From a virus: DNA of 25,660 nucleotides. Positions 2,415 to 20,833 of this stretch are shown here, piece by piece; within the stretch, counting starts at the first letter, position 1; each line of letters begins with the position of its first letter. Below the pieces are notes generated by a model, which saw nothing but the letters and a program-made list of their open reading frames with translations, did no database searches and had not been told where the DNA came from. A program made the translations under genes and the position numbers. The DNA lies in IMG/VR virus record IMGVR_UViG_3300048928_000074, positions 1-25,660 of that record. One strand, written 5' to 3'.

Positions 2415-3105
2415 GGATCATCTTCCTGATACTGCTTAAATCAGCACCGGCGAGCATCAGCGCGGCGGTGTATACGGATGAAAGCGCCGGAATCCCGTCA
2501 GCCAGCTGGCGCACGATCTCCGCCGCGTTGCCACGGGCAGTAAATACCCACGCCCGTGCGCTTTTCCCGGCCACTCCGCCCGCAACGGTCGCAATATCGG
2601 CCAGCATACCGGCGCGCCGGGCACTGAAGCCGGTGAGCGCAGCCTTGAGCGCTGTCATATTCAGACCGCCCGCCGCGCCCGCCTGCGCAATCTCGCCCGC
2701 GCTGCTGACGGTTCTGGCCGTGGAAACAGACAGCGGCAGGGCAGCAGGCAGACCGTTCATCGCCCTGGCGGGCTTCTGCATTTTCACGGTGGCCAGCTCC
2801 GCCGCCGAACGCGCAAGGCGACTGACCTGTGTGAACGCCGGGGCGGGAAAAACCGCCGTCAGTGGATCGAGGCCTGCCATAAATTCATCATGCGTCGCGC
2901 CGGTGGCCATAATGATCACAACCTCCGTTTCGCCGGTCACGCCGGATAATTTTTCCGCCAGCCACGAAACGGCATTGGCCGGGCTCAGATACGCCCCGTT
3001 ATCCGTCTGCTGCCCCAGCCCGAACACCCACGGGTGCGCGGCCACAACGGAACAGCTCAGCGCCGGAAACTGCCCGGGAAAAGCCAGCGTTGCTTTACGC
3101 CACAT
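2386..3105 (-). CDS. Conserved-looking tail-region protein, function unknown
   Basis: A 239-residue protein without a family I can name. It is alanine-rich, with weakly hydrophobic segments (SWLAEKLSGVTGETEVVIIMATGATHDEF near residues 47-76), and includes GG/AG-rich helices around 130-200. There is no signal peptide or clear membrane span. It overlaps the tail-fibre chaperone gene by 11 bases and the following 179-residue gene by 29 bases, which strongly suggests translational coupling in the late operon. The long overlap in two frames and its place between fibre chaperone and baseplate genes argue that it is a real structural or assembly protein. HP1-like phages carry an uncharacterised gene at a similar place. 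Confidence 0.6.
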   Translation of the reverse strand: MWRKATLAFPGQFPALSCSVVAAHPWVFGLGQQTDNGAYLSPANAVSWLAEKLSGVTGETEVVIIMATGATHDEFMAGLDPLTAVFPAPAFTQVSRLARSAAELATVKMQKPARAMNGLPAALPLSVSTARTVSSAGEIAQAGAAGGLNMTALKAALTGFSARRAGMLADIATVAGGVAGKSARAWVFTARGNAAEIVRQLADGIPALSSVYTAALMLAGADLSSIRKMIHDDDNHTGA

Positions 3106-3519: not shown

Positions 3520-5775
3520 TTAAAACCCCTTCGCTATCCAGTATGAGCCGTTCAGATCAGAGCCCGCCTCAAAGCCCGTTCTGCTTACATTACGCACTGA
3601 TGACCAGTTGCCATCCCCTGCACTCATGCCGGTACGGTCTGCGGTGCAGGAAATCCCCACACAGGCATTCGGAAACGCGATCGGGAATGCCACGCCGAGA
3701 TAACCTATCGCGCCACTGTTAACCCTGCCCCACTGGGTGATCAGTCCTGTTGATGCATCCTTAAACCAGCCATTTGCACTGAGGCTCGCTGTATTTTTAA
3801 ATGAGTATCGGGCGTCAAAGTTGCTGTAGTCATTCAACGAAAGGCGATCTATGTAGATGTTGCCGGTGGCGTTGTTGATCGTTAAAGGCCGCAGCGAGTT
3901 GTAATTACCGTACGGATCGCCCTTGTTAGTCAGCAGCAAATAGGTATTCACATTATCCTGACGCCAGAATGCACCGTACTCCCCGTACGCCATGCGCAGG
4001 GCATTGGGGTAAGTCGAAACGATTTCCGCATTGACGCTGACCGGCTCACTGTTCCGCGTGGTCATCTCAATCCCGCCAGTAGCCTTGAGCATAAGACCGT
4101 TATTGCCGCCTTTGTAATTCAGAAAACTGACGTTATCTGAATACGATGACCCCTTACCGATGTACCACTGACTTGCACCGGCATAATCACGCGAAATAAT
4201 ATAACTGGACTCGCCAGGCGTAACCCCTCGTACAGCCAGCGGCTCACCATCAGCAATGATGCGCAGCCCGCCGGTCATGGTATCGCCGCCTTTCGCAACA
4301 GCCCCTACATCTGACGGTGCAGGCGGATTCGCTGTATTGAAGCTACGTCGCCAGCCAGGCTGATAATTAAAATTCGGGGCAAAGGAATCCTGATTATTGA
4401 TGTAGATGAACTCAGCTTTCGTAACTGCATTTGCCCCGGTAGCTGTTGTCGGCGTTGTGACACGAATAGTCATCGCATAGCGATTCCCCATGACCTCAAC
4501 AACCGCGCCCGCTAACTGGATATTGCCGCAGCCAGTATCGGTGATGATTTTGTTGGTGGCGTAGTTCCACGATCCCCGGCACATCCAGTACGGGTGGCTA
4601 AAAGCGCCCTGCGCCTCAAGCCATGCAATAAATTCGCCTGTCGTCCAGCTGTTACTGTCTCCACCAATATCCACAGCGCCGGAAGACGCATAAGCGGCCG
4701 CTATAGTGCGGGCAAATTGCCGTTTATCGGGAATATCTGCCCCGTTCTGGTTTTTTTTCAGGCTGGCTTCGGCGTTATCAAAAGCTACTTTCACCGCTGC
4801 TGGCGTCGCCGCCATAGCCTGACTGGTGCTGTTTGTGGCGCTGGAAAGCATGACAAAACCTTTCTCCGTCAGCGTCGCATCGGGATGATTGCGGGATTGC
4901 TCATGCAGCCTTAAGGCGCTGTCGGCGTTCTGCGCATTCAACGAGCCCTTAGGGCGTAAGTCGGTGATCGTGCCGCCCGCGTCGATACTCGCGAGCGCAA
5001 AGACATAATGCTGCACCCCGTCCTGCACGTAATCAGCGAGGTTTGCGGCCACCGTAATTTTGCTTTGCACCGTCCAGGCACTGGTCAGGGTTCCCGTCCA
5101 GCACACATCCAGCCAGACGTTAACGGGCTTGGCGCTAAGGGTAATATTCTGGTTAGCGACCAGCTGTGTGCGCAGCCCGGCCACGTATCCCGCGCCCTGG
5201 GTAACAAAGTATTGTGTGCCGGTTCGCCCGACCATATAGCCGTCACCAAAGAAAGCCGCCATGCCATAGATATCAATGTTTTCCAGGCGCTGGCGCTCAT
5301 CCATCCCGGCCATGCGGGCGGTAAAGTCGATCTGCCATGTTTCAGCAGGCGTGCTAATACCGGTTTCAGCCTGCGCACCGGTGAACTCCATCAGAAACGA
5401 GCGGGTCAGCACATTACCCTGCTGCCCTGCGGCCGTTTTCAGCTTCTGCTGCGCCGGGGCATGCACCACCATGGCAAGGATGCCACTGGCTTTGTTAACA
5501 AGTCCGATCCAGTTGAAGGTGAAATTACCCACATCCGCGCCCAGCACCACTGAAAAGGCCACGGCATTAGCACTGACCACACCGGTGCGCGACACGGCCT
5601 GGCGGTGAACAATCTGCGATGCGGGCGGCAGCGTCTCCGCACGGTTTACAGGCAACGAGGGATCAAGGCCGGGTACGTTCGCGAAAACGAATTCATCCAG
5701 CACAACAGGCTCACTGCTGATGGTCTGCCTGGCTTTCCATTGCTCGAATGCCGTAGTGATAGCTGTCTGTGACAT
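3520..5775 (-). CDS. Tail fibre with collar domain and gp53-like tip
   Basis: A 751-residue receptor-binding fibre. Residues ~1-160 (QWKARQTISSEPVVLDEFVFANVPGL region) match the DUF3751 tail-collar domain of P2 gpH-like fibres, which attaches to the baseplate. Around residues 290-335 there is a fibre repeat (DATLTEKGFVMLSSATNS). The middle is glycine- and asparagine-rich shaft. The last ~80 residues (WFKDASTGLITQWGRV ... GSYWIAKGF) match the gp53-like C-terminal domain found on many enterobacterial fibres and likely contact the host surface. The start is supported by AAGGAG 9 bases before ATG. No DNA-inversion system for switching tips is present nearby. Confidence 0.88.
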   Translation of the reverse strand: MSQTAITTAFEQWKARQTISSEPVVLDEFVFANVPGLDPSLPVNRAETLPPASQIVHRQAVSRTGVVSANAVAFSVVLGADVGNFTFNWIGLVNKASGILAMVVHAPAQQKLKTAAGQQGNVLTRSFLMEFTGAQAETGISTPAETWQIDFTARMAGMDERQRLENIDIYGMAAFFGDGYMVGRTGTQYFVTQGAGYVAGLRTQLVANQNITLSAKPVNVWLDVCWTGTLTSAWTVQSKITVAANLADYVQDGVQHYVFALASIDAGGTITDLRPKGSLNAQNADSALRLHEQSRNHPDATLTEKGFVMLSSATNSTSQAMAATPAAVKVAFDNAEASLKKNQNGADIPDKRQFARTIAAAYASSGAVDIGGDSNSWTTGEFIAWLEAQGAFSHPYWMCRGSWNYATNKIITDTGCGNIQLAGAVVEVMGNRYAMTIRVTTPTTATGANAVTKAEFIYINNQDSFAPNFNYQPGWRRSFNTANPPAPSDVGAVAKGGDTMTGGLRIIADGEPLAVRGVTPGESSYIISRDYAGASQWYIGKGSSYSDNVSFLNYKGGNNGLMLKATGGIEMTTRNSEPVSVNAEIVSTYPNALRMAYGEYGAFWRQDNVNTYLLLTNKGDPYGNYNSLRPLTINNATGNIYIDRLSLNDYSNFDARYSFKNTASLSANGWFKDASTGLITQWGRVNSGAIGYLGVAFPIAFPNACVGISCTADRTGMSAGDGNWSSVRNVSRTGFEAGSDLNGSYWIAKGF

Positions 5776-7876: not shown

Positions 7877-9879
7877 GCATGTAGCTCCTGCCATTCCGCA
7901 AGCTGTCCCGGCGTCAGCGGTTGCTGGGTATTAATATTCAGGGTGCCGATTTTCTGGCTGCGGTCTGTCACGGTACTGGTATTAGCGGAAATGGTTTTGC
8001 TGATGCCGCCTTTATCAATATCGGTTAAGCGCCCACCGGTGGATAACGTATTTTGTGTTACGGTTGGCGCAGGTATTTCCTGCGCACTCACCGGCACAGC
8101 ATTAATTGCCGTTTCCGCCGCAAGCGAAATATCAACACCGGGAATTTTATTTAATTTTTCAACTATCCAGTTCCACGACTTAAGAAACCCACCTTTAATC
8201 GTGTTCCAGATATTATCGAACAACCCCATAATGCCGGAGGCCATATTCCCCAGCGACTCTAACGGGGAAAAACCGGACAGTAAGGCCGTAAATTTATTCC
8301 ATCCCTCGCTGATGTATTCCCATGCGCCCGTAAAGACTTCGGCCAGCCACGAAATATATTTCTCAACCAGCTTAAACGCCGTGGTGTTCATCACTGCCGC
8401 TTTCACGTCGTCCCAGTGCTTAATCAGCATGTAACAACCGATGGCCAGCAGGGCAATCGCACCGATGATCAGCAGAATCGGCCAGCTCAAAAAGTTGATG
8501 GCCGCACCGGTCAGTACCGACGCAATACGAACCGCCAGCAGCACCCCACGCAGCGCAGAGAGTGTGGCGGCGTAAGCCGCAGTTGCGCCCCGGACAAGCC
8601 ACATGACGGCGATATGTACTTTCGTGACCGCCATGACGGCGGACATAATGCCCCGCAGGCCGCTCATGATAAAAAATGACACGCCCATAACGATATTGGC
8701 GAGCGCCCCGGCACCGGCCAGGCTCATAACGGCCAGTGTGGCATACCCCACCACACGCGCGATATTGGGAAACATCTCCATCCATTTTGCGAACGTGGCA
8801 CCCATATCTGCCAGACGGTTCAGCAGCGGATAGAGAACCGGGATCAGCGTCAGGCCAATAACGGTCTGGATCGCGGTAAGGATGGCCATAAAGCGATCCC
8901 ACGGCTTCACCATTTTCGCGGCCATCTCCTGGGTACGCTTCAGCCCGTCCGATCCGCCCAGTTCAGTGATGTTGCGCTGCATCAGCGCCACGTTGCCGTA
9001 AAGCTGTTTCACCACGGCCGAACTGTCACCAAAAGCATCATCCAGCTCTTTCTGTGCTTTCAGGTTCCCTTCGAGGCTCTTGCCGTATTTGCCCTGTAAT
9101 TTTTCCAGCATGGCGGGCATGGACAGGAGATTGCCGTTGGCATCCTCAAACGACAACCCCAGCTTTTTCGCCCCGTCCACTGCCCCGGTGATAAAGCTCT
9201 CATACGCCCCGCTGGCCTCGGTGCCCAGCGTCCGGCTCAGTTGCCCCAGCACGGCCAGCTGCTCATCGAGGCCGATATTGAAGTTCGTCCCGACGCCGCG
9301 CGCGCCTTCGATCAGGTCTTTGACCGTGCCCAGTTCAACGCCAAACTGCTGGCGCATAAAGGCCATTTTGCCCGCCAGCTGCTCGGCGAACTGCACTTTG
9401 CCCAGGCGCTCGGCATCGCTGCGGAAATTACCGAACATCTGCCCCATAAATTCAGCCGTTTCGGCGGAGGTGGCTTTCATCGCAAAGGCCAGGGTGTTGG
9501 CAACTTTCGTCACCTTTGGCAGCTCCGTTGAGGTCAGCCCGGCAATCGCGCCGTTAATTTCTGCCGTGGAATTCACAAACTCCACCGCGCTGGCACCGTA
9601 TTTCATGCTGAAAAGCGTGGCATCCCGGCTGACGGTCTTCAGCGCTTTGTCGTCCACGCCCCGCGCCGATGCCTCCTGAAGCGCGTCATACATCTCAATA
9701 GCAGGACTCAGCGCCCCTTTAATGGTCTGCGCCACGCCCCACATCGCCAGTGCGCCCATGCCGATGCGGTTAAAGGCGTCCTTGGACTTATCGGCAAAAG
9801 CCGTTACCGATCGCTGCGCCTGCCTTAGCGGGCGCGTTAATCTGTCGATGAGCCTTAATTCAAAATCCAGTTCATTCAT
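7873..9879 (-). CDS. Tail tape measure protein
   Basis: A 668-residue TP901-type tape measure. The N-terminus (LRLIDRLTRPLRQAQRSVTAFADKSKDAF) is helical, followed by a core domain with 'AMKATSAETAEFMGQMFGNFRSDAERLGKVQ' (~135-170). Several hydrophobic segments lie in the middle: around residues 335-355, 375-405 and 460-485 (INFLSWPILLIIGAIALLAIG). The C-terminal 100 residues contain threonine-rich segments. The start overlaps the stop of the frameshift extension of the chaperone (TGATG). It sets tail length and is ejected with the DNA. It is shorter than the ~815-residue P2 gpT, so a shorter tail is expected. Confidence 0.92.
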   Translation of the reverse strand: MNELDFELRLIDRLTRPLRQAQRSVTAFADKSKDAFNRIGMGALAMWGVAQTIKGALSPAIEMYDALQEASARGVDDKALKTVSRDATLFSMKYGASAVEFVNSTAEINGAIAGLTSTELPKVTKVANTLAFAMKATSAETAEFMGQMFGNFRSDAERLGKVQFAEQLAGKMAFMRQQFGVELGTVKDLIEGARGVGTNFNIGLDEQLAVLGQLSRTLGTEASGAYESFITGAVDGAKKLGLSFEDANGNLLSMPAMLEKLQGKYGKSLEGNLKAQKELDDAFGDSSAVVKQLYGNVALMQRNITELGGSDGLKRTQEMAAKMVKPWDRFMAILTAIQTVIGLTLIPVLYPLLNRLADMGATFAKWMEMFPNIARVVGYATLAVMSLAGAGALANIVMGVSFFIMSGLRGIMSAVMAVTKVHIAVMWLVRGATAAYAATLSALRGVLLAVRIASVLTGAAINFLSWPILLIIGAIALLAIGCYMLIKHWDDVKAAVMNTTAFKLVEKYISWLAEVFTGAWEYISEGWNKFTALLSGFSPLESLGNMASGIMGLFDNIWNTIKGGFLKSWNWIVEKLNKIPGVDISLAAETAINAVPVSAQEIPAPTVTQNTLSTGGRLTDIDKGGISKTISANTSTVTDRSQKIGTLNINTQQPLTPGQLAEWQELHA

Positions 9880-10324: not shown

Positions 10325-10586
10325 TTACTATTTCCTCTCGTTTATTAATTTCATCGACCAGCGTGTTATGACGCGCTGCACAGGTTGTATATAATTTCTG
10401 GTAATCCAGTAATGCCCCGGCAATATATGCCCCGGTTACACCGTTAAGGCGTGGCAGTTTTTCCGGACATTTTGTTTTCAGGTTTTCCTGATAGGACACG
10501 TTCGGCGCGATCTGCGGCGTCGTTGTACAGCCGCACAAACTCATCAGACACACAGACGTTAGTAAAAACCGGCTTAACGATTTCAT
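10311..10586 (-). CDS. Rz1-like outer-membrane spanin lipoprotein
   Basis: A 91-residue protein starting inside the Rz gene in another frame and continuing 133 bases beyond it. Residues 1-19 form a lipoprotein signal with lipobox L17-C18-G19-C20 (MSLCGC), so Cys20 would be acylated after cleavage and the protein tethered to the outer membrane. The mature part has prolines and basic residues and a longer helical C-terminus than lambda Rz1. GAGA about 8 bases upstream supports the ATG at 10586; an ATG at 10598 in the same frame is a possible alternative. Together with Rz it would fuse inner and outer membranes as the last lysis step. Confidence 0.85.
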   Translation of the reverse strand: MKSLSRFLLTSVCLMSLCGCTTTPQIAPNVSYQENLKTKCPEKLPRLNGVTGAYIAGALLDYQKLYTTCAARHNTLVDEINKREEIVNGKD

Positions 10587-10803
10587 AGCGAATCTCATCT
10601 GGCTGATCGGCCTGAAGCGCCGCCAGCTTGTCTTCAAGACTGCGGGCGGAGTCACTGGCAATGCCCCGGAACACGCTGCCGGTTGCGGCGGCCGCTTTCT
10701 GCACGGCCAGATCGAGGCTGTCACGGTGCCACGTCGCCACTTTCCAGCCCGCCAGAAATGCCAGTGCCAGCCCCGCCAGTAGCGCAACTGCCGCCCTGCT
10801 CAT
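10444..10803 (-). CDS. Rz-like inner-membrane spanin
   Basis: A 119-residue protein with a single N-terminal membrane anchor at about residues 5-22 (AVALLAGLALAFLAGW). A periplasmic alpha-helical region follows (LDLAVQKAAAATGSVFRGIASDSARSLEDKLAALQ), and the C-terminus is polar. This is the layout of an i-spanin, and the overlapping lipoprotein gene in another frame confirms it. The start shares one base with the endolysin stop (TGATG). Confidence 0.82.
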   Translation of the reverse strand: MSRAAVALLAGLALAFLAGWKVATWHRDSLDLAVQKAAAATGSVFRGIASDSARSLEDKLAALQADQPDEIRYEIVKPVFTNVCVSDEFVRLYNDAADRAERVLSGKPENKMSGKTATP

Positions 10804-11892: not shown

Positions 11893-13016
11893 GCGCTGGC
11901 CTCCACGGTCTGATCGAGCACAAGACTGATCGAGATTTGCAGCGGTACTTCATACGGACGCACCACAATGTAAATCTCGACGTGTTTTTTGGTTTTCCAG
12001 ACGATTTTCACGTCGCCATCCTGCGGCGGCTTCACCTCTCCCGGAAACGTCACACCGTTGATTTGTACGGATCTGGACATTTCACGCAGCGGCGCGGCGA
12101 AAATGGACTGGTGCGCGGCAATGCTCGCCGGCGTGCTGTTAAGCGAACGGTCGCCAATTTTGCCGATGGCCAGCAGTCGCACACGGCGCGCCACCTTGTC
12201 AGCAATGCGCAGCGTCTCAATCGACTGATAATCGCCGCCCTCAACATCCAGTGTCCGCCCGTCTGACCAGTAAAGGCCGTCATAATCGGGATACCACATC
12301 GGCACACTGAAACGCTGTGCCTCCAGCGCCTGGAGGGTGGCCACCGTGATGGCTTCACCCTCGCCATCCACCGGCATTTCGTCACTGCCGGTACTCAGCA
12401 GCGCCCCGGTTTTCACGCGCGCCGGGCTGTCTGCGACGGTAACAGCACGGTTACACAGCCGCCCGGCCAGTACACCCGGCTCGTTGCCCCACAGGCACGG
12501 AACCAGCTGAACCGCCTTTTCTGCGATGCCAGCCTGAAGCGCTGACAGCCGCGCCAGATAATCGGCCTGGGTCTCTTTTGCCTGAAAACCTTCCACGGCC
12601 AGCAGGAACCATACCCAGCGCCCGTACTTTGCAATAAGCTCAGCGCGAAGCGTGGCGGCCAGATTGATCGCGGCTTTGTCGCTCACGGCATCACACAGCA
12701 CCACCCCTTCAACGGAGCACGCCAGCTGCGCCGCGTGAACCGCTTTTGCCCAGGCATCAGGCTCCGCGTCATCGGCCAGCACATGCACGAATGCCCACCA
12801 GTTCTGCCCGGCGTTTGCCCGTGCAGCCATCAGATAGCTTTTCAGCGGACTCGCTGCACTGCCCAGCAACGCATCAAAATCCGTCTGGGTGTTTACCGCC
12901 TGCGTTTTGCCGTTGCCCTTTTTACCCCTGCCGATAAACAGTACGCAGCGCTCGACTTCCGTCACTTCGCCCTGCAACTGGTTTACCTGGTTTACGTCCA
13001 CACTTGGCCAGGTCAT
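11889..13016 (-). CDS. Tail sheath protein (DUF2586 type)
   Basis: A 375-residue contractile sheath subunit. Beginning 'MTWPSVDVNQVNQLQGEVTEVERCVLFIGRG', it contains a central 'VAVADSPARVKTGALL'-like segment and the C-terminal 'VRPYEVPLQISISLVLD', which fit the DUF2586 sheath family of HP1-like phages rather than P2 FI. Sheath followed by tube with a 4-base overlap is the usual pair. The C-terminal beta strands would form the inter-subunit mesh that survives contraction. Confidence 0.83.
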   Translation of the reverse strand: MTWPSVDVNQVNQLQGEVTEVERCVLFIGRGKKGNGKTQAVNTQTDFDALLGSAASPLKSYLMAARANAGQNWWAFVHVLADDAEPDAWAKAVHAAQLACSVEGVVLCDAVSDKAAINLAATLRAELIAKYGRWVWFLLAVEGFQAKETQADYLARLSALQAGIAEKAVQLVPCLWGNEPGVLAGRLCNRAVTVADSPARVKTGALLSTGSDEMPVDGEGEAITVATLQALEAQRFSVPMWYPDYDGLYWSDGRTLDVEGGDYQSIETLRIADKVARRVRLLAIGKIGDRSLNSTPASIAAHQSIFAAPLREMSRSVQINGVTFPGEVKPPQDGDVKIVWKTKKHVEIYIVVRPYEVPLQISISLVLDQTVEASA

Positions 13017-16556: not shown

Positions 16557-17357
16557 TCAGATAAATTTAAAGCGCTTGTCTTTTTTATCGCCGAACTGAC
16601 GGCGCGGCATATCGGTCACGCGTTTATCCAGCTTGCTGAAATTTTTCACCACGTCTTTGATATTCCCCAGCAGCGTTGAAAACTCCTGCGTATCGATTAC
16701 TTCAGCAATCTGATCGACATCTTCCACGGTTGAATTCAGTTTTTCTTCAATCGCTGTAACACGCGTTTCCAGTGCGTTAACAGCTTCTGCAAGCGCCTGC
16801 AATTTATCGTCGCCGGCCGGTACTTCCTCCTGCGGCTCTTCTTCAAAGTGTGGCTTGATACCAAATAATTTTTGCCATTGTGGCTTCATTTTTATCGCCT
16901 TATTAATGTTTCCGTTGGTGGTTACTGAAAACGCGTAGTAACCCGATTTATTTTTATTACGCTCAGAGAAGCGTAATCGTGTAGTGCCCACGCTGGCGGG
17001 TGAGTCAGTGACCGCCAGCCCTTTGAGATAGGTACGCCCGGTGCCGCGCCAGTCCTCTTCGGGTTCAATGGAGAAATAAACCAGCTGGTCTTCGCGATTA
17101 GCATGAATAAGGTTCATAGCAGGGCTGATTTTTGCGTAAAGCCGGGCAACACCATCATTTCCGTCCTGCCACATTACTTCGCGTACTTCCCCGAATGTCC
17201 CCCACCCACGCTCATGCTCTGGCCAGAGTCTCGCGCTGTAATGGTTAAAGTCATAGGTTTCCCCCATATCAATAATCCAGTCGCGATGAATCTGGCGTCC
17301 GTCAACCGTATCTCCTTCGGTGGCAATACACAGCCAGTCTGTTAACAGTTGAGACAT
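16557..17357 (-). CDS. O: Capsid scaffold and maturation protease O
   Basis: A 266-residue protein (P2 gpO 284). The N-terminal protease domain keeps the catalytic triad known from gpO: Asp19 in GDTVDGR, His48 in PEHERG and Ser96 in VYFSIEPEE. The motif LKGLAVTDSPASVGTTRLRF follows. The C-terminal ~100 residues are the scaffold part, including a likely coiled coil (KLQALAEAVNALETRVTAIEEK). GAGG six bases before ATG supports the start. It is the first gene of the long late transcript and diverges from P. Confidence 0.93.
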   Translation of the reverse strand: MSQLLTDWLCIATEGDTVDGRQIHRDWIIDMGETYDFNHYSARLWPEHERGWGTFGEVREVMWQDGNDGVARLYAKISPAMNLIHANREDQLVYFSIEPEEDWRGTGRTYLKGLAVTDSPASVGTTRLRFSERNKNKSGYYAFSVTTNGNINKAIKMKPQWQKLFGIKPHFEEEPQEEVPAGDDKLQALAEAVNALETRVTAIEEKLNSTVEDVDQIAEVIDTQEFSTLLGNIKDVVKNFSKLDKRVTDMPRRQFGDKKDKRFKFI

Positions 17358-17517
17358 TATTTCCTCTCGCCTCGCTGATATTGCAGGGCGATTATTACGG
17401 AATAAATGAATCCCTTCACCCCGGTTAATTCTTATGAGTTCGGATAACAGCCCTTAGTGGAATGGTTACGAATAATGCCCGCCGTTTTTTATATTCAGGC
17501 GCGGCATAATTAAGCCT
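17358..17517. promoter_or_regulatory. Divergent late promoter region between O and P
   Basis: This 160-base gap separates the two late units, so late promoters for both must be in or near it. For P a TATATT box at 17490-17495 is a candidate -10 with only a poor -35 (TTACGA at 17466-17471, 18-bp spacer), as expected for an activator-dependent promoter. The P2 Ogr site TGT-N12-ACA is not present; there is no TGT on the plus strand in this gap. The Ogr-like protein may therefore bind a different sequence. Confidence 0.55.
17475..17507 (+). repeat. Imperfect inverted repeat just before the P start codon
   Basis: ATGCC-CGCC and GGCG-C-GGCAT form a 9-bp stem with one bulge around a 14-nt T-rich loop, ending 10 bases before the P start. 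The start has no good Shine-Dalgarno sequence. The dyad covers the proposed -10 box, so it may be a protein-binding site or an RNA hairpin. Confidence 0.5.
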
Positions 17518-19293
17518 ATGGCTAAATACTCAGAAGAATTAAAAGGCGTTGCCCGTGCATTATATTTGCGTCGCGCCACGCCAAAAGAAATTGCATCCGA
17601 ATTAAATCTGCCGAATGCGCGGATCGTTTATTACTGGGCGGAAAAACACAGCTGGGCTGACTTACTGAGCCACGAAAGCACAGAGGAAGCGATTGAACGA
17701 CGCTACCAGCTGCTTGCCGCGCGTGACGGTAAAAGCGACACCGAACTTAAAGAAATGGACATGCTGATTGCGCATGCCACCAAACTGCGGGCGCAGAGCA
17801 ACAAGCATAAAGAGAAGCTGGCCGAAAACCGGGGAACGACGCGCGACAACGCCCCTGACGACAGCGACGGGGAGCCGCGCAAGAAACGCAAATATAAAAA
17901 GAATGATGTTTCATCCCTGACGCAGGACGATTTTGATGCCTGGGCAGATGAGCACCTCTTTGAATACCAGAAACACCTGCGGCTTAACATCGGCCAGCAG
18001 GTCAGGAACATCCTCAAAAGCCGCCAGATCGGGGCGACCTGGTATTTTGCTTATGAGGCTTTTGAAAATGCGGTGATGACCGGCGATCCGCAAATTTTTT
18101 TGTCCGCGTCCAAAGCGCAGGCCGAGGTGTTCCGTTCCTACATCGTGAACATCGCCGAGCAGTATTTCGGGATCACGCTCACCGGCAACCCGATTCGCCT
18201 GAGTAACGGCGCAGAGCTGCGTTTTCTCTCAACGAACAAAAACACCGCTCAGTCATACAGCGGGCACCTGTACTGTGACGAATATTTCTGGGTGCCCAAC
18301 TTCGCCAGGCTGAACGAAGTAGCCAGCGCGATGGCCACGCATGACAAGTGGCGCACCACCTACTTTTCAACGCCATCGGCCAAAACTCACCAGGCCTATC
18401 CGTTCTGGACTGGCGAGGAATGGAAACAGGGCAGTAAAAAGCGCGCGGCGGCAGTCTTTCCGTCCTTTGACGATATGCGCAACGGTGGCCGTCTTTGCCC
18501 GGATGGTCAGTGGCGCTACATCATCACGATGGAAGATGCGATCGCGGGCGGCTTTAACCTCGCCAGCATCGAGAAACTGCGCAACCGCTACAACGACGCC
18601 ACCTTTTCCATGCTTTATATGTGCGTGTTCGTGGACAGCAAGGACAGCGTTTTCCGGTTTTCTGATCTGGAGGCCTGCGGCGTAGAAACGGAAACCTGGC
18701 AGGATCACGACATCAGAAAAGCGCGGCCATTTGGCGAGCGCCCTGTGTGGGGCGGTTTCGACCCTGCCCGCAGCGGTGATTTGAGCTGCTTTGTCATTGT
18801 CGCCCCGCCTGAGTATGCCGCCGAGCGATACCGGGTGCTGCGCGTCTTTAACTGGAAGGGCATGAATTTTCGCTGGCAGGCAAAGCAGATCGAGGAGCTG
18901 TTTCACAAATACAACTTCACCTATCTGGGCATCGACGTGACCGGCATCGGCCAGGGCGTTTATGAAAATATTCAGCATTTTGCGCTGCGTGTGGCGGTGG
19001 CTATCCGCTATGACCGTCACACCAAAGACCAGCTGGTCCTGAAAGCCGCTGATGTGGTGGAGAGCCAGCGTATCGAGTGGGACAAAGACATGAAAGAGAT
19101 CGCGGCCAGCTTTATGGCCATACGCCGCACCACCACGCAAAGCGGTGGCGCAATGACATTTGTCGCAGACCGCAGTCAGGACACCGGACACGCGGAATCC
19201 TTCTGGGCGATAGCCCATGCACTGCATAACGAACCCCTTAACTACGAGAACAAACCGCGGAGTCGCTGGCGGATCAGGAAAGAGGCAGCATGA
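17518..19293 (+). CDS. P: Terminase large subunit P (ATPase/nuclease)
   Basis: A 591-residue P2 gpP-type terminase. An N-terminal helix-turn-helix region (~10-45, ATPKEIASELNLPNARIVYYW) is followed by a linker, then the ATPase with deviant Walker A at 167-174 (LKSRQIGAT) and Walker B-like HLYCDE at 250-255. The C-terminal RNase H-like nuclease has GGFDPARSGD (Asp415) and GIDVTGIGQG (Asp473), with DTGHAESFWA near the end. It cuts concatemers at cos and drives packaging. It overlaps Q by 4 bases and diverges from O as in P2. Confidence 0.95.
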   Translation: MAKYSEELKGVARALYLRRATPKEIASELNLPNARIVYYWAEKHSWADLLSHESTEEAIERRYQLLAARDGKSDTELKEMDMLIAHATKLRAQSNKHKEKLAENRGTTRDNAPDDSDGEPRKKRKYKKNDVSSLTQDDFDAWADEHLFEYQKHLRLNIGQQVRNILKSRQIGATWYFAYEAFENAVMTGDPQIFLSASKAQAEVFRSYIVNIAEQYFGITLTGNPIRLSNGAELRFLSTNKNTAQSYSGHLYCDEYFWVPNFARLNEVASAMATHDKWRTTYFSTPSAKTHQAYPFWTGEEWKQGSKKRAAAVFPSFDDMRNGGRLCPDGQWRYIITMEDAIAGGFNLASIEKLRNRYNDATFSMLYMCVFVDSKDSVFRFSDLEACGVETETWQDHDIRKARPFGERPVWGGFDPARSGDLSCFVIVAPPEYAAERYRVLRVFNWKGMNFRWQAKQIEELFHKYNFTYLGIDVTGIGQGVYENIQHFALRVAVAIRYDRHTKDQLVLKAADVVESQRIEWDKDMKEIAASFMAIRRTTTQSGGAMTFVADRSQDTGHAESFWAIAHALHNEPLNYENKPRSRWRIRKEAA

Positions 19294-20321
19294 AAAAGAA
19301 GAAATACACCGCCGCGCGCGGTAAAGGTAAAAACGCGCCAGCCAGAAAGATGAGTATCCTGCGTTTCGGCAAGCCTGAACCGGTACTGACCACCGGCACA
19401 GATTACTGCGACGTATGGTATGACAACGAGGCCAACCACTTTACGCTACCGATTGACAGGCTGGCGCTGGCGCAGCTGATTAACCTGAATGGCCAGCACG
19501 GCGGCATCATCCATTCACGCAAAAACATGGTGCTGGCTGACTATATCGGCGGCGGGTTATCCCGTGATGACCTTGAAGCCGCAGTGTTTGATTTTATTAC
19601 CTTCGGGGATGTGGGGATCGTAAAAATCCGCAATGGCTGGGGTGACGTTATCGCCCTGACACCCTTGCCGGGGCTGTATACGCGTCGTCGTAAAACGGGG
19701 GAATTTGCTGTGCTGCAACAGGGCGAGCCGCTGATTTATCCGCCAGAAGATGTAGTTTTTCTGCGTATGTATGACCCGCAGCAGCATATCTACGGCCTGC
19801 CGGACTACATCGGCGGCATTCACTCCGCGCTGCTTAACAGTGAGGCGGTGATTTTCCGCCGCCGCTACTACCACAACGGCGCACATACGGGCGGCATCCT
19901 CTATACATCTGACCCCAGCATGACCGACGAACTGGAGGAAGAGATTGAACGCCAGCTGCGTGACAGCAAAGGGATCGGTAACTTCTCCACGATTCTGGTG
20001 AATATTCCGAACGGACAAAAAGATGGGGTGCAGTTTATTCAGATGGGCGACATTTCTGCCAATGATGAGTTTGCCAGCGTGAAAAACATCAGCGCCCAGG
20101 ATGTACTGAATGCGCACCGCTTTCCGGCAGGTCTGGCCGGGCAAATCGCGCAGAATGCTGCCGGGCTGGGCGACCCGGAGAAGGCGGAGCGAATTTACAA
20201 AAAAAGCGAAGTACTGCCCCTCCAGCGCCGCTTTATGGAGGCCATCAGCGCCGACCCGGAAATCCCGGAATATCTGCACCTTAACTTTGCTTTCCCACAA
20301 CAAACAGACGGTGCGGCATGA
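19290..20321 (+). CDS. Q: Portal protein Q
   Basis: A 343-residue P2 gpQ-type portal. Typical segments are 'FTLPIDRLALAQLINLNGQHGGIIHSRKNMV', 'GEPLIYPPEDVVFLRMYDPQQHIYGLPDYIGGIHSALLNSEA', 'FRRRYYHNGAHTGGILYTSD' and 'RFPAGLAGQIAQNAAGLGDPEKAERIY'. It forms the ring through which DNA enters and leaves the head. The ATGA overlap with the P stop and GAGG upstream indicate coupled translation. Confidence 0.95.
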   Translation: MKKKKYTAARGKGKNAPARKMSILRFGKPEPVLTTGTDYCDVWYDNEANHFTLPIDRLALAQLINLNGQHGGIIHSRKNMVLADYIGGGLSRDDLEAAVFDFITFGDVGIVKIRNGWGDVIALTPLPGLYTRRRKTGEFAVLQQGEPLIYPPEDVVFLRMYDPQQHIYGLPDYIGGIHSALLNSEAVIFRRRYYHNGAHTGGILYTSDPSMTDELEEEIERQLRDSKGIGNFSTILVNIPNGQKDGVQFIQMGDISANDEFASVKNISAQDVLNAHRFPAGLAGQIAQNAAGLGDPEKAERIYKKSEVLPLQRRFMEAISADPEIPEYLHLNFAFPQQTDGAA

Positions 20322-20371
20322 GCAAAAAAAGGTTAAAATCTAGGCATCCCAAAATGTCTGGAGCATGGAAA

Positions 20372-20635
20372 ATGCGCGTATTAAAAATTAAATGCCCGGA
20401 TTGCGACGCTGCGGCGATTATAAAGAAAACTAACCGCAAGCATCGCGAAATAGCGGATATTTACTGTGCATGTAGCGATGTGGAGTGTGGGCATACGTTT
20501 GTTATGAATCTGACGTTCTCCCACACACTTAGCCCCAGCGCTAAAACCGGTGATGCGATGTTGCAACAGCTGATCAGCAACCTTTCACCTCAGCAAAAAC
20601 AGATGACGTTTGATTTGCTGAAAGCAAGTACCTGA
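20372..20635 (+). CDS. ogr: Ogr/Delta-family zinc-finger late activator
   Basis: An 87-residue protein. Cysteines 8, 11, 34 and 39 give C-x2-C-x22-C-x4-C, exactly the spacing of P2 Ogr/P4 Delta. These bind zinc, interact with the RNA polymerase alpha subunit and activate late promoters. The ATG at 20372 is preferred because GGAG lies 8 bases upstream and the zinc finger then begins at the N-terminus as in Ogr. A longer frame from 20318, overlapping the Q stop, would add 18 residues. It is downstream of Q in the same orientation, so it may reinforce its own operon. Confidence 0.85.
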   Translation: MRVLKIKCPDCDAAAIIKKTNRKHREIADIYCACSDVECGHTFVMNLTFSHTLSPSAKTGDAMLQQLISNLSPQQKQMTFDLLKAST

Positions 20636-20638
20636 TCA

Positions 20639-20833
20639 TCAATGGCCTCTTTCATAGAGGCTTTTTAACGCTTGCTCTTTTTCGACGAGTGCGACAATCA
20701 AATCCGAAGACATTTCAGAAATCCATGACATCACTATTCTATTTTGCTCAAGGTCTAAATCTCCTTTAGCAGCCAGACCAGCAACCAGATCTAATCGGCG
20801 CATCTGAATAATCTCGTCAAACAGTTCAGGCAT
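20639..20833 (-). CDS. Small SOS-controlled protein of unknown function
   Basis: A 64-residue acidic, helical protein (MPELFDEIIQMRRLDLVAGLAA ... EKEQALKSLYERGH) with no signal peptide, membrane segment or family I recognise. A near-consensus LexA box lies 21-40 bases upstream of the start, so expression should rise on DNA damage. In phage 186 an SOS-controlled antirepressor region (tum) occupies the same place after gene A, so an induction role is attractive but unproven. DinI-like sequence is not seen. Its 3' end converges on the Ogr-like gene with 3 bases between the stops and contains that operon's terminator. Confidence 0.7.
   Translation of the reverse strand: MPELFDEIIQMRRLDLVAGLAAKGDLDLEQNRIVMSWISEMSSDLIVALVEKEQALKSLYERGH
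20645..20666 (+). terminator. Terminator of the P-Q-ogr operon
   Basis: Plus-strand stem GCCTCT/AGAGGC with a 5-nt loop TTCAT, followed by five T. It starts 9 bases after the Ogr stop codon. The same bases encode the last residues of the 64-residue protein on the other strand. Confidence 0.85.

Follow-up and report, generated by a model that had tools for sequence, protein, structure and literature searches.

How are the late genes of a phage switched on when it encodes an Ogr-type activator and its two divergent late units start from a gap with no P2-type activator site? The question is raised by the window analysed here, an IMG/VR record of 25,660 bases that represents a fragment of a Peduoviridae phage genome (Table 1). 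The leftward late unit starts with gene O and continues through head, lysis and tail/baseplate genes on the minus strand down to position ~172. The rightward unit is comprised of P, Q and ogr, whose DNA is 75-77% identical to that of the ESSI-2 and ESSI2_ev coliphages. As originally predicted, the Ogr-like gene is third in this divergent unit: its open reading frame (20318-20635) follows P and Q, shares an ATGA overlap with Q and matches PF04606. The same prediction contrasted this placement with that in P2; it is ordinary in this branch, as in ESSI-2, K139 and phiO18P. The gene adjoins Q in all seven named phages of the box clade that were first compared (ESSI-2, ev129, ev040, ev239, YenM_324, SW5 and phiO18P) and lies beside Q in K139, SMHB1 and F108 as well. 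Its position after Q has already been remarked for K139 and Smhb1 (PMC8537503), hence the gene order is not what is new. A partial second terminase-like gene was observed between the portal and large terminase genes in phiO18P (L168, 12247-13020) and in 186 (L661, 1215-1961).

Table 1. Coordinates of the late genes and of the candidate regulatory elements in the window
Feature	Position	Strand	Basis
Gene O (capsid scaffold/protease)	16557..17357	-	PF05929, E 8e-42
Candidate -10 hexamer AATAAT of O-side late promoter, 32 nt from box	17391..17396	-	Best conserved offset
Candidate activator box TTC-N7-TTC(GG)-N14-(TG)GAA-N7-GAA, dyad centre 17450.5	17429..17472	.	12/12 framework match
Candidate -10 hexamer CATAAT of P-side late promoter, 32 nt from box	17505..17510	+	Best conserved offset
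Gene P (terminase large subunit)	17518..19293	+	PF03237, PF17289, PF06056
Gene Q (portal)	19290..20321	+	PF04860
TAAAAT, putative -10 of separate ogr promoter, inside long frame	20334..20339	+	Invariance in relatives
Probable ogr ribosome-binding site GGAG	20360..20363	+	GGA[AG] in 79/80 loci
Probable extent of ogr-like gene, 87 aa (long frame from 20318)	20372..20635	+	PF04606; conserved start codon
Predicted intrinsic terminator after ogr, hairpin and TTTTT	20644..20666	+	RNA fold -10.6 kcal/mol, z -4.5

The product of the third gene has both sequence hallmarks of the Ogr/Delta family, and late activation is its predicted function. The 20318-20635 frame matches the Ogr_Delta profile with an E value of 1.6e-16 (60.3 bits against a cut-off of 26.3), and in an alignment with P2 Ogr, where the cysteines are invariant, it keeps the zinc motif CX2CX22CX4C of the family (PMC3931495) as C26, C29, C52 and C57. 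A sequence search of the PDB with Ogr gave weak matches only, to Pumilio chains (with the C-terminal part) and to RNA polymerase II zinc ribbons (E 0.06-0.26), and an AlphaFold model of the 87-residue Ogr using 12 relatives was discarded (mean pLDDT 52). Some diversity was observed in the family. Prophages and phages of Vibrio, Photobacterium, Enterovibrio and Salinivibrio encode a tandem double zinc-finger Ogr, often with CxC as the first cysteine pair (loci L211, L212, L218, L220, L223, L228, L229, L230, L235, L244, L246 and L247, and 12237-12749 of SMHB1, L664), which recalls the two-domain Delta protein of P4. In HP1 (L167, NC_001697), an unannotated Ogr-like frame follows Q on the minus strand (10420-10713); in the deposited sequence it seems to be disrupted near the first cysteine pair, whereas the frame is intact in relatives.

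The 160-base gap between O and P (17358-17517) contains no TGT on the plus strand, just as the original prediction stated, and its sole ACA, at 17447, belongs to no site. A scan of both strands of the gap for TGT-N12-[AC]CA yielded no match. The looser motif is the proper one to scan for, since TGT-N12-CCA is the annotated sequence at the shared O/P-type sites in P2 and 186 as well as at P2 PF and 186 pJ, and most annotated sites of these two phages take the looser form. Elsewhere in the window TGT-N12-ACA occurs six times against 4.0 expected, and none of these matches falls in the gap or ahead of the gene that opens either late unit.

Aligning the O-P gap among related phages, as had been suggested, revealed a conserved element of another kind. 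Across 67 distinct sequences the alignment reads ATTC-N7-TTCGG ... CGAA-N7-CGAAT, and the box of this branch is the dyad TTC-N7-TTC(GG)-N14-(CC)GAA-N7-GAA, with four half-sites phased at 10 bp. The box of the window is imperfect outside the TTC/GAA triplets, since its right inner arm reads TGGAA instead of CCGAA. The triplets themselves are complete, and four of 200,000 shuffles of the window's own gap match the framework. We searched for the 12-base framework TTC-N7-TTC-N17/18-GAA-N7-GAA in 116 non-redundant O-P gaps from phages that resemble ESSI, phiO18P, SW5 or HP1, together with prophages of named bacteria. It is exact in 59 of them, a count raised somewhat by common descent, whereas 5,800 dinucleotide shuffles gave no full match and reached 11/12 at best. 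The 13 P2-like control gaps, which derive from near-identical phages, all carry TGT-N12-[AC]CA and never the TTC/GAA box, whereas the P2-type motif is found in five of the 116 gaps of this branch.

The box is also confined to this gap. With a 16-base score made of the triplets and the inner GG/CC, near-complete boxes (at least 14/16) were found 65 times in the O-P gaps of 108 loci and not once in the remaining 1,326,171 bp of those loci. ESSI-2, ev129, ev040, ev239, YenM_324, phiO18P and the window have one convincing box apiece; a second phiO18P candidate at 8864 scored only 13/16 and was judged a chance match. A blind, motif-only scan of viral contigs, with three TTCGG half-sites as the query, led back to the same place. 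Among the matches listed, 51 of 80 loci lie no more than 300 bp from a P gene, as do all eight loci with four TTCGG half-sites, and the other 29 loci, with neither P nor Ogr, look like chance matches.

About half of the non-redundant gaps depart from the exact framework. SW5-like gaps have lost one inner arm, and in HP1-like gaps (L167, L243, L245, L412-L447) long 10-bp-phased GGATAT/TTCGGATATG arrays replace the plain four-part box. The half-site is TTCCG in Psychromonas and some Aeromonas prophages and TTCGT in L387-type gaps, and TTCCT was also recorded. Separately, SW5 (L169) has three TTCGG at 10-bp spacing at 227-251, near the left genome end and away from its O-P gap.

The position of the box relative to potential promoters is equally regular. 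Among 67 non-redundant gaps that carry a good box, TATAAT-like hexamers score highest on either side at a distance of 32 nt from the box, with a mean of 4.00/6 on the P side (1.73 over all offsets) and 4.04/6 on the O side (1.66 over all offsets). The window has exactly this spacing in both directions. From the position of the P-side hexamer, P transcription is predicted to start at ~17517, and with the hexamer this near to the start codon of P the mRNA may be leaderless; the short spacing between this hexamer and the P start (17505-17520 in the window) is conserved in ESSI-like phages. Assuming the usual distance from a -10 box to the start, the dyad centre would lie at ~-66 and the tandem half-sites at ~-46 and ~-56. 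The predicted proximal half-site at ~-46 is close to the site of P2, whose centre lies near -55 as compared with ~-66 here. A single site shared by the divergent P and O promoters, typical of P2 and 186, is found here too, with the box midway.

The supply of the activator itself can be considered at the 3' end of the rightward unit. Codon 19 of the long ogr frame is ATG in 70, GTG in eight and TTG in one of 80 related loci, and in 79 of the 80 GGA[AG] is followed by a start codon at the site equivalent to 20372, which is probably the real start rather than 20318. Upstream of it, TAAAATCC is invariant in 80 of 80 related loci, despite the rarity of xTA leucine codons (Leu codons in Q are mostly CTG, and xTA makes up ~11% of them), and TAAAAT at 20334 is unchanged as far as SW5 and YenM_324. 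Together with the pattern of start codons and ribosome-binding sites, this invariance suggests that ogr has its own putative promoter near 20334 and starts at 20372. The hairpin and T run 3' of ogr, missed by a generic terminator scan and then supported by RNA folding, would terminate the P-Q-ogr transcript.

Based on these observations, we propose that the Ogr-like protein occupies the TTC/GAA dyad at 17429-17472, bringing host RNA polymerase to a pair of promoters, each with a -10 box and no recognisable -35. The rightward promoter would read P-Q-ogr and the leftward one would read O through the baseplate genes. One box could serve both directions because each promoter faces a tandem half-site pair at ~-46/-56, and the whole late regulon because it is the only box found. 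The putative ogr promoter at ~20334 would supply the first Ogr, and read-through from P would then add to it, similarly to P2 and 186, whose ogr and B genes carry annotated promoters of their own. We have good confidence in this scheme as a whole; in particular, all structural genes are very probably switched on from one symmetric site between back-to-back promoters, with a sequence unlike that of P2. The positive loop envisaged in the original prediction, in which Ogr would require its own activated promoter, is plausible, given that the box-driven P promoter lies upstream of ogr and a terminator follows the gene. However, the invariant TAAAAT suggests a separate promoter, so the loop would not be needed to start Ogr synthesis or be its sole source.

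Ogr is likely the protein that reads the box. Three points make it the best candidate. Of the regulators compared it is the conserved one (41-94% identical), whereas CI and Cox diverge or cannot be aligned from one box-bearing phage to another; the box occupies the position of the P2 Ogr and 186 B sites; and the box is found nowhere else in the genomes searched. An unlikely alternative is that the box is real and is read by another regulator, such as the phage repressor, Cox, CII or a host protein, with Ogr acting elsewhere or having lost its role. The box-bearing phages encode several DNA-binding proteins, the half-site is unlike TGT, and binding by Ogr is a prediction. Nevertheless, among box-bearing phages CI and Cox show great divergence or no relation, and ev239 and SW5 have no annotated CII. 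The absence of the box from the rest of the searched genomes, immunity regions included, and its matching of the P2/186 activator position also speak against another reader. Of the two possibilities raised at the outset, namely a factor that reads another sequence or a unit driven differently, the former is well supported by the clade-wide dyad midway between the -10 boxes.

A second alternative, that ordinary sigma-70 promoters drive the late units and the palindrome is incidental, comes from the K139 record, which gives putative -35/-10 pairs (P16 and P17) in the O-P gap. We regard it as very improbable. Both annotated P16 hexamers fall within the palindrome and are probably a misassignment, a scan for sigma-70-like promoters with a -35 had no match in the window's gap and its only match inside P, and an incidental repeat would not be expected to keep a constant 32-nt spacing on both sides in 67 gaps. 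Least probable of all is a structural role for the dyad in packaging, as an origin or as an mRNA hairpin, which an inverted repeat could in principle form, as constraint falls on the 10-bp-phased triplets while the intervening sequence varies, and the symmetric -10 boxes place the box outside both predicted transcripts.

More tentatively, and at somewhat less than even chances, the Ogr proteins of the K139/HP1/ESSI-2 branch may have a DNA code of their own, based on tandem 10-bp-phased TTC half-sites in a four-part dyad, with one box switching the whole late regulon. The two bases after TTC (GG, CG, GT or CT) would co-evolve with the finger, so that helper phages and satellites of different lineages could not cross-activate each other. 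Half-site class and finger residues covary in part, though not tightly enough to establish contact. At alignment position 24, Arg mostly accompanies a G as the last half-site base, being present in 119 of 139 proteins with GG and 7 of 7 with CG, and in 0 of 4 with GT and 0 of 2 with CT. A single recognition residue tracking the half-site class was sought and none was found, as the SW5-like proteins break the Arg rule.

Comparison with established systems shows which features are shared. In P2 (NC_001895), the shared PO/PP site (3057-3087) lies midway between the divergent P and O promoters, Ogr is a C4 zinc-finger activator, and ogr can be supplied from its own promoter and by late read-through, all of which has a counterpart, in part proposed, in the window. 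In contrast, the P2 site is TGT-N12-CCA/ACA at ~55 bp from both annotated starts rather than a TTC/GAA dyad predicted near -66, P2 has three annotated sites for four promoters rather than one box per genome, and its ogr follows D, between D and attP/int, rather than Q. Phage 186 (NC_001317) likewise has one B site between the divergent promoters pV and p12 (3798-3817), and its B promoter, pB, has a putative counterpart here; the window differs in that 186 uses TGT-N12-CCA, has a second site for pJ and carries B near attP. In K139, phiO18P, ESSI-2 and the ESSI2_ev phages, as in the window, ogr comes after Q and the box lies between O and P, while their records give no activator site, that of K139 having sigma-70 promoters instead. 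Operator variants among Ogr systems are already known and are of the TGT/ACA kind. The Ralstonia phages phiRSA1 and phiRSY1 combine Ogr-type regulation with the operator TGTTGT-N13-ACAACA, unlike that of P2 (PMC5694545); it stays within this kind, whereas the box of the window does not. The literature searched held no earlier account of the TTC/GAA box, which the K139 genome paper may mention; the PV94 paper has nothing on late promoters.

Late control in K139, HP1, phiO18P and ESSI-2 has apparently been assumed to be P2-like or to proceed from ordinary promoters. The box is very probably common to hundreds of related phages, K139 among them, as judged from sequence comparison, and a defined box allows late control to be tested directly in Vibrio, Aeromonas, Haemophilus and Enterobacterales phages. 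The box can also serve as a sequence tag for finding such phages and possible satellites. Finally, the half-site variants provide a natural specificity set with which to study DNA recognition by C4 Ogr fingers.
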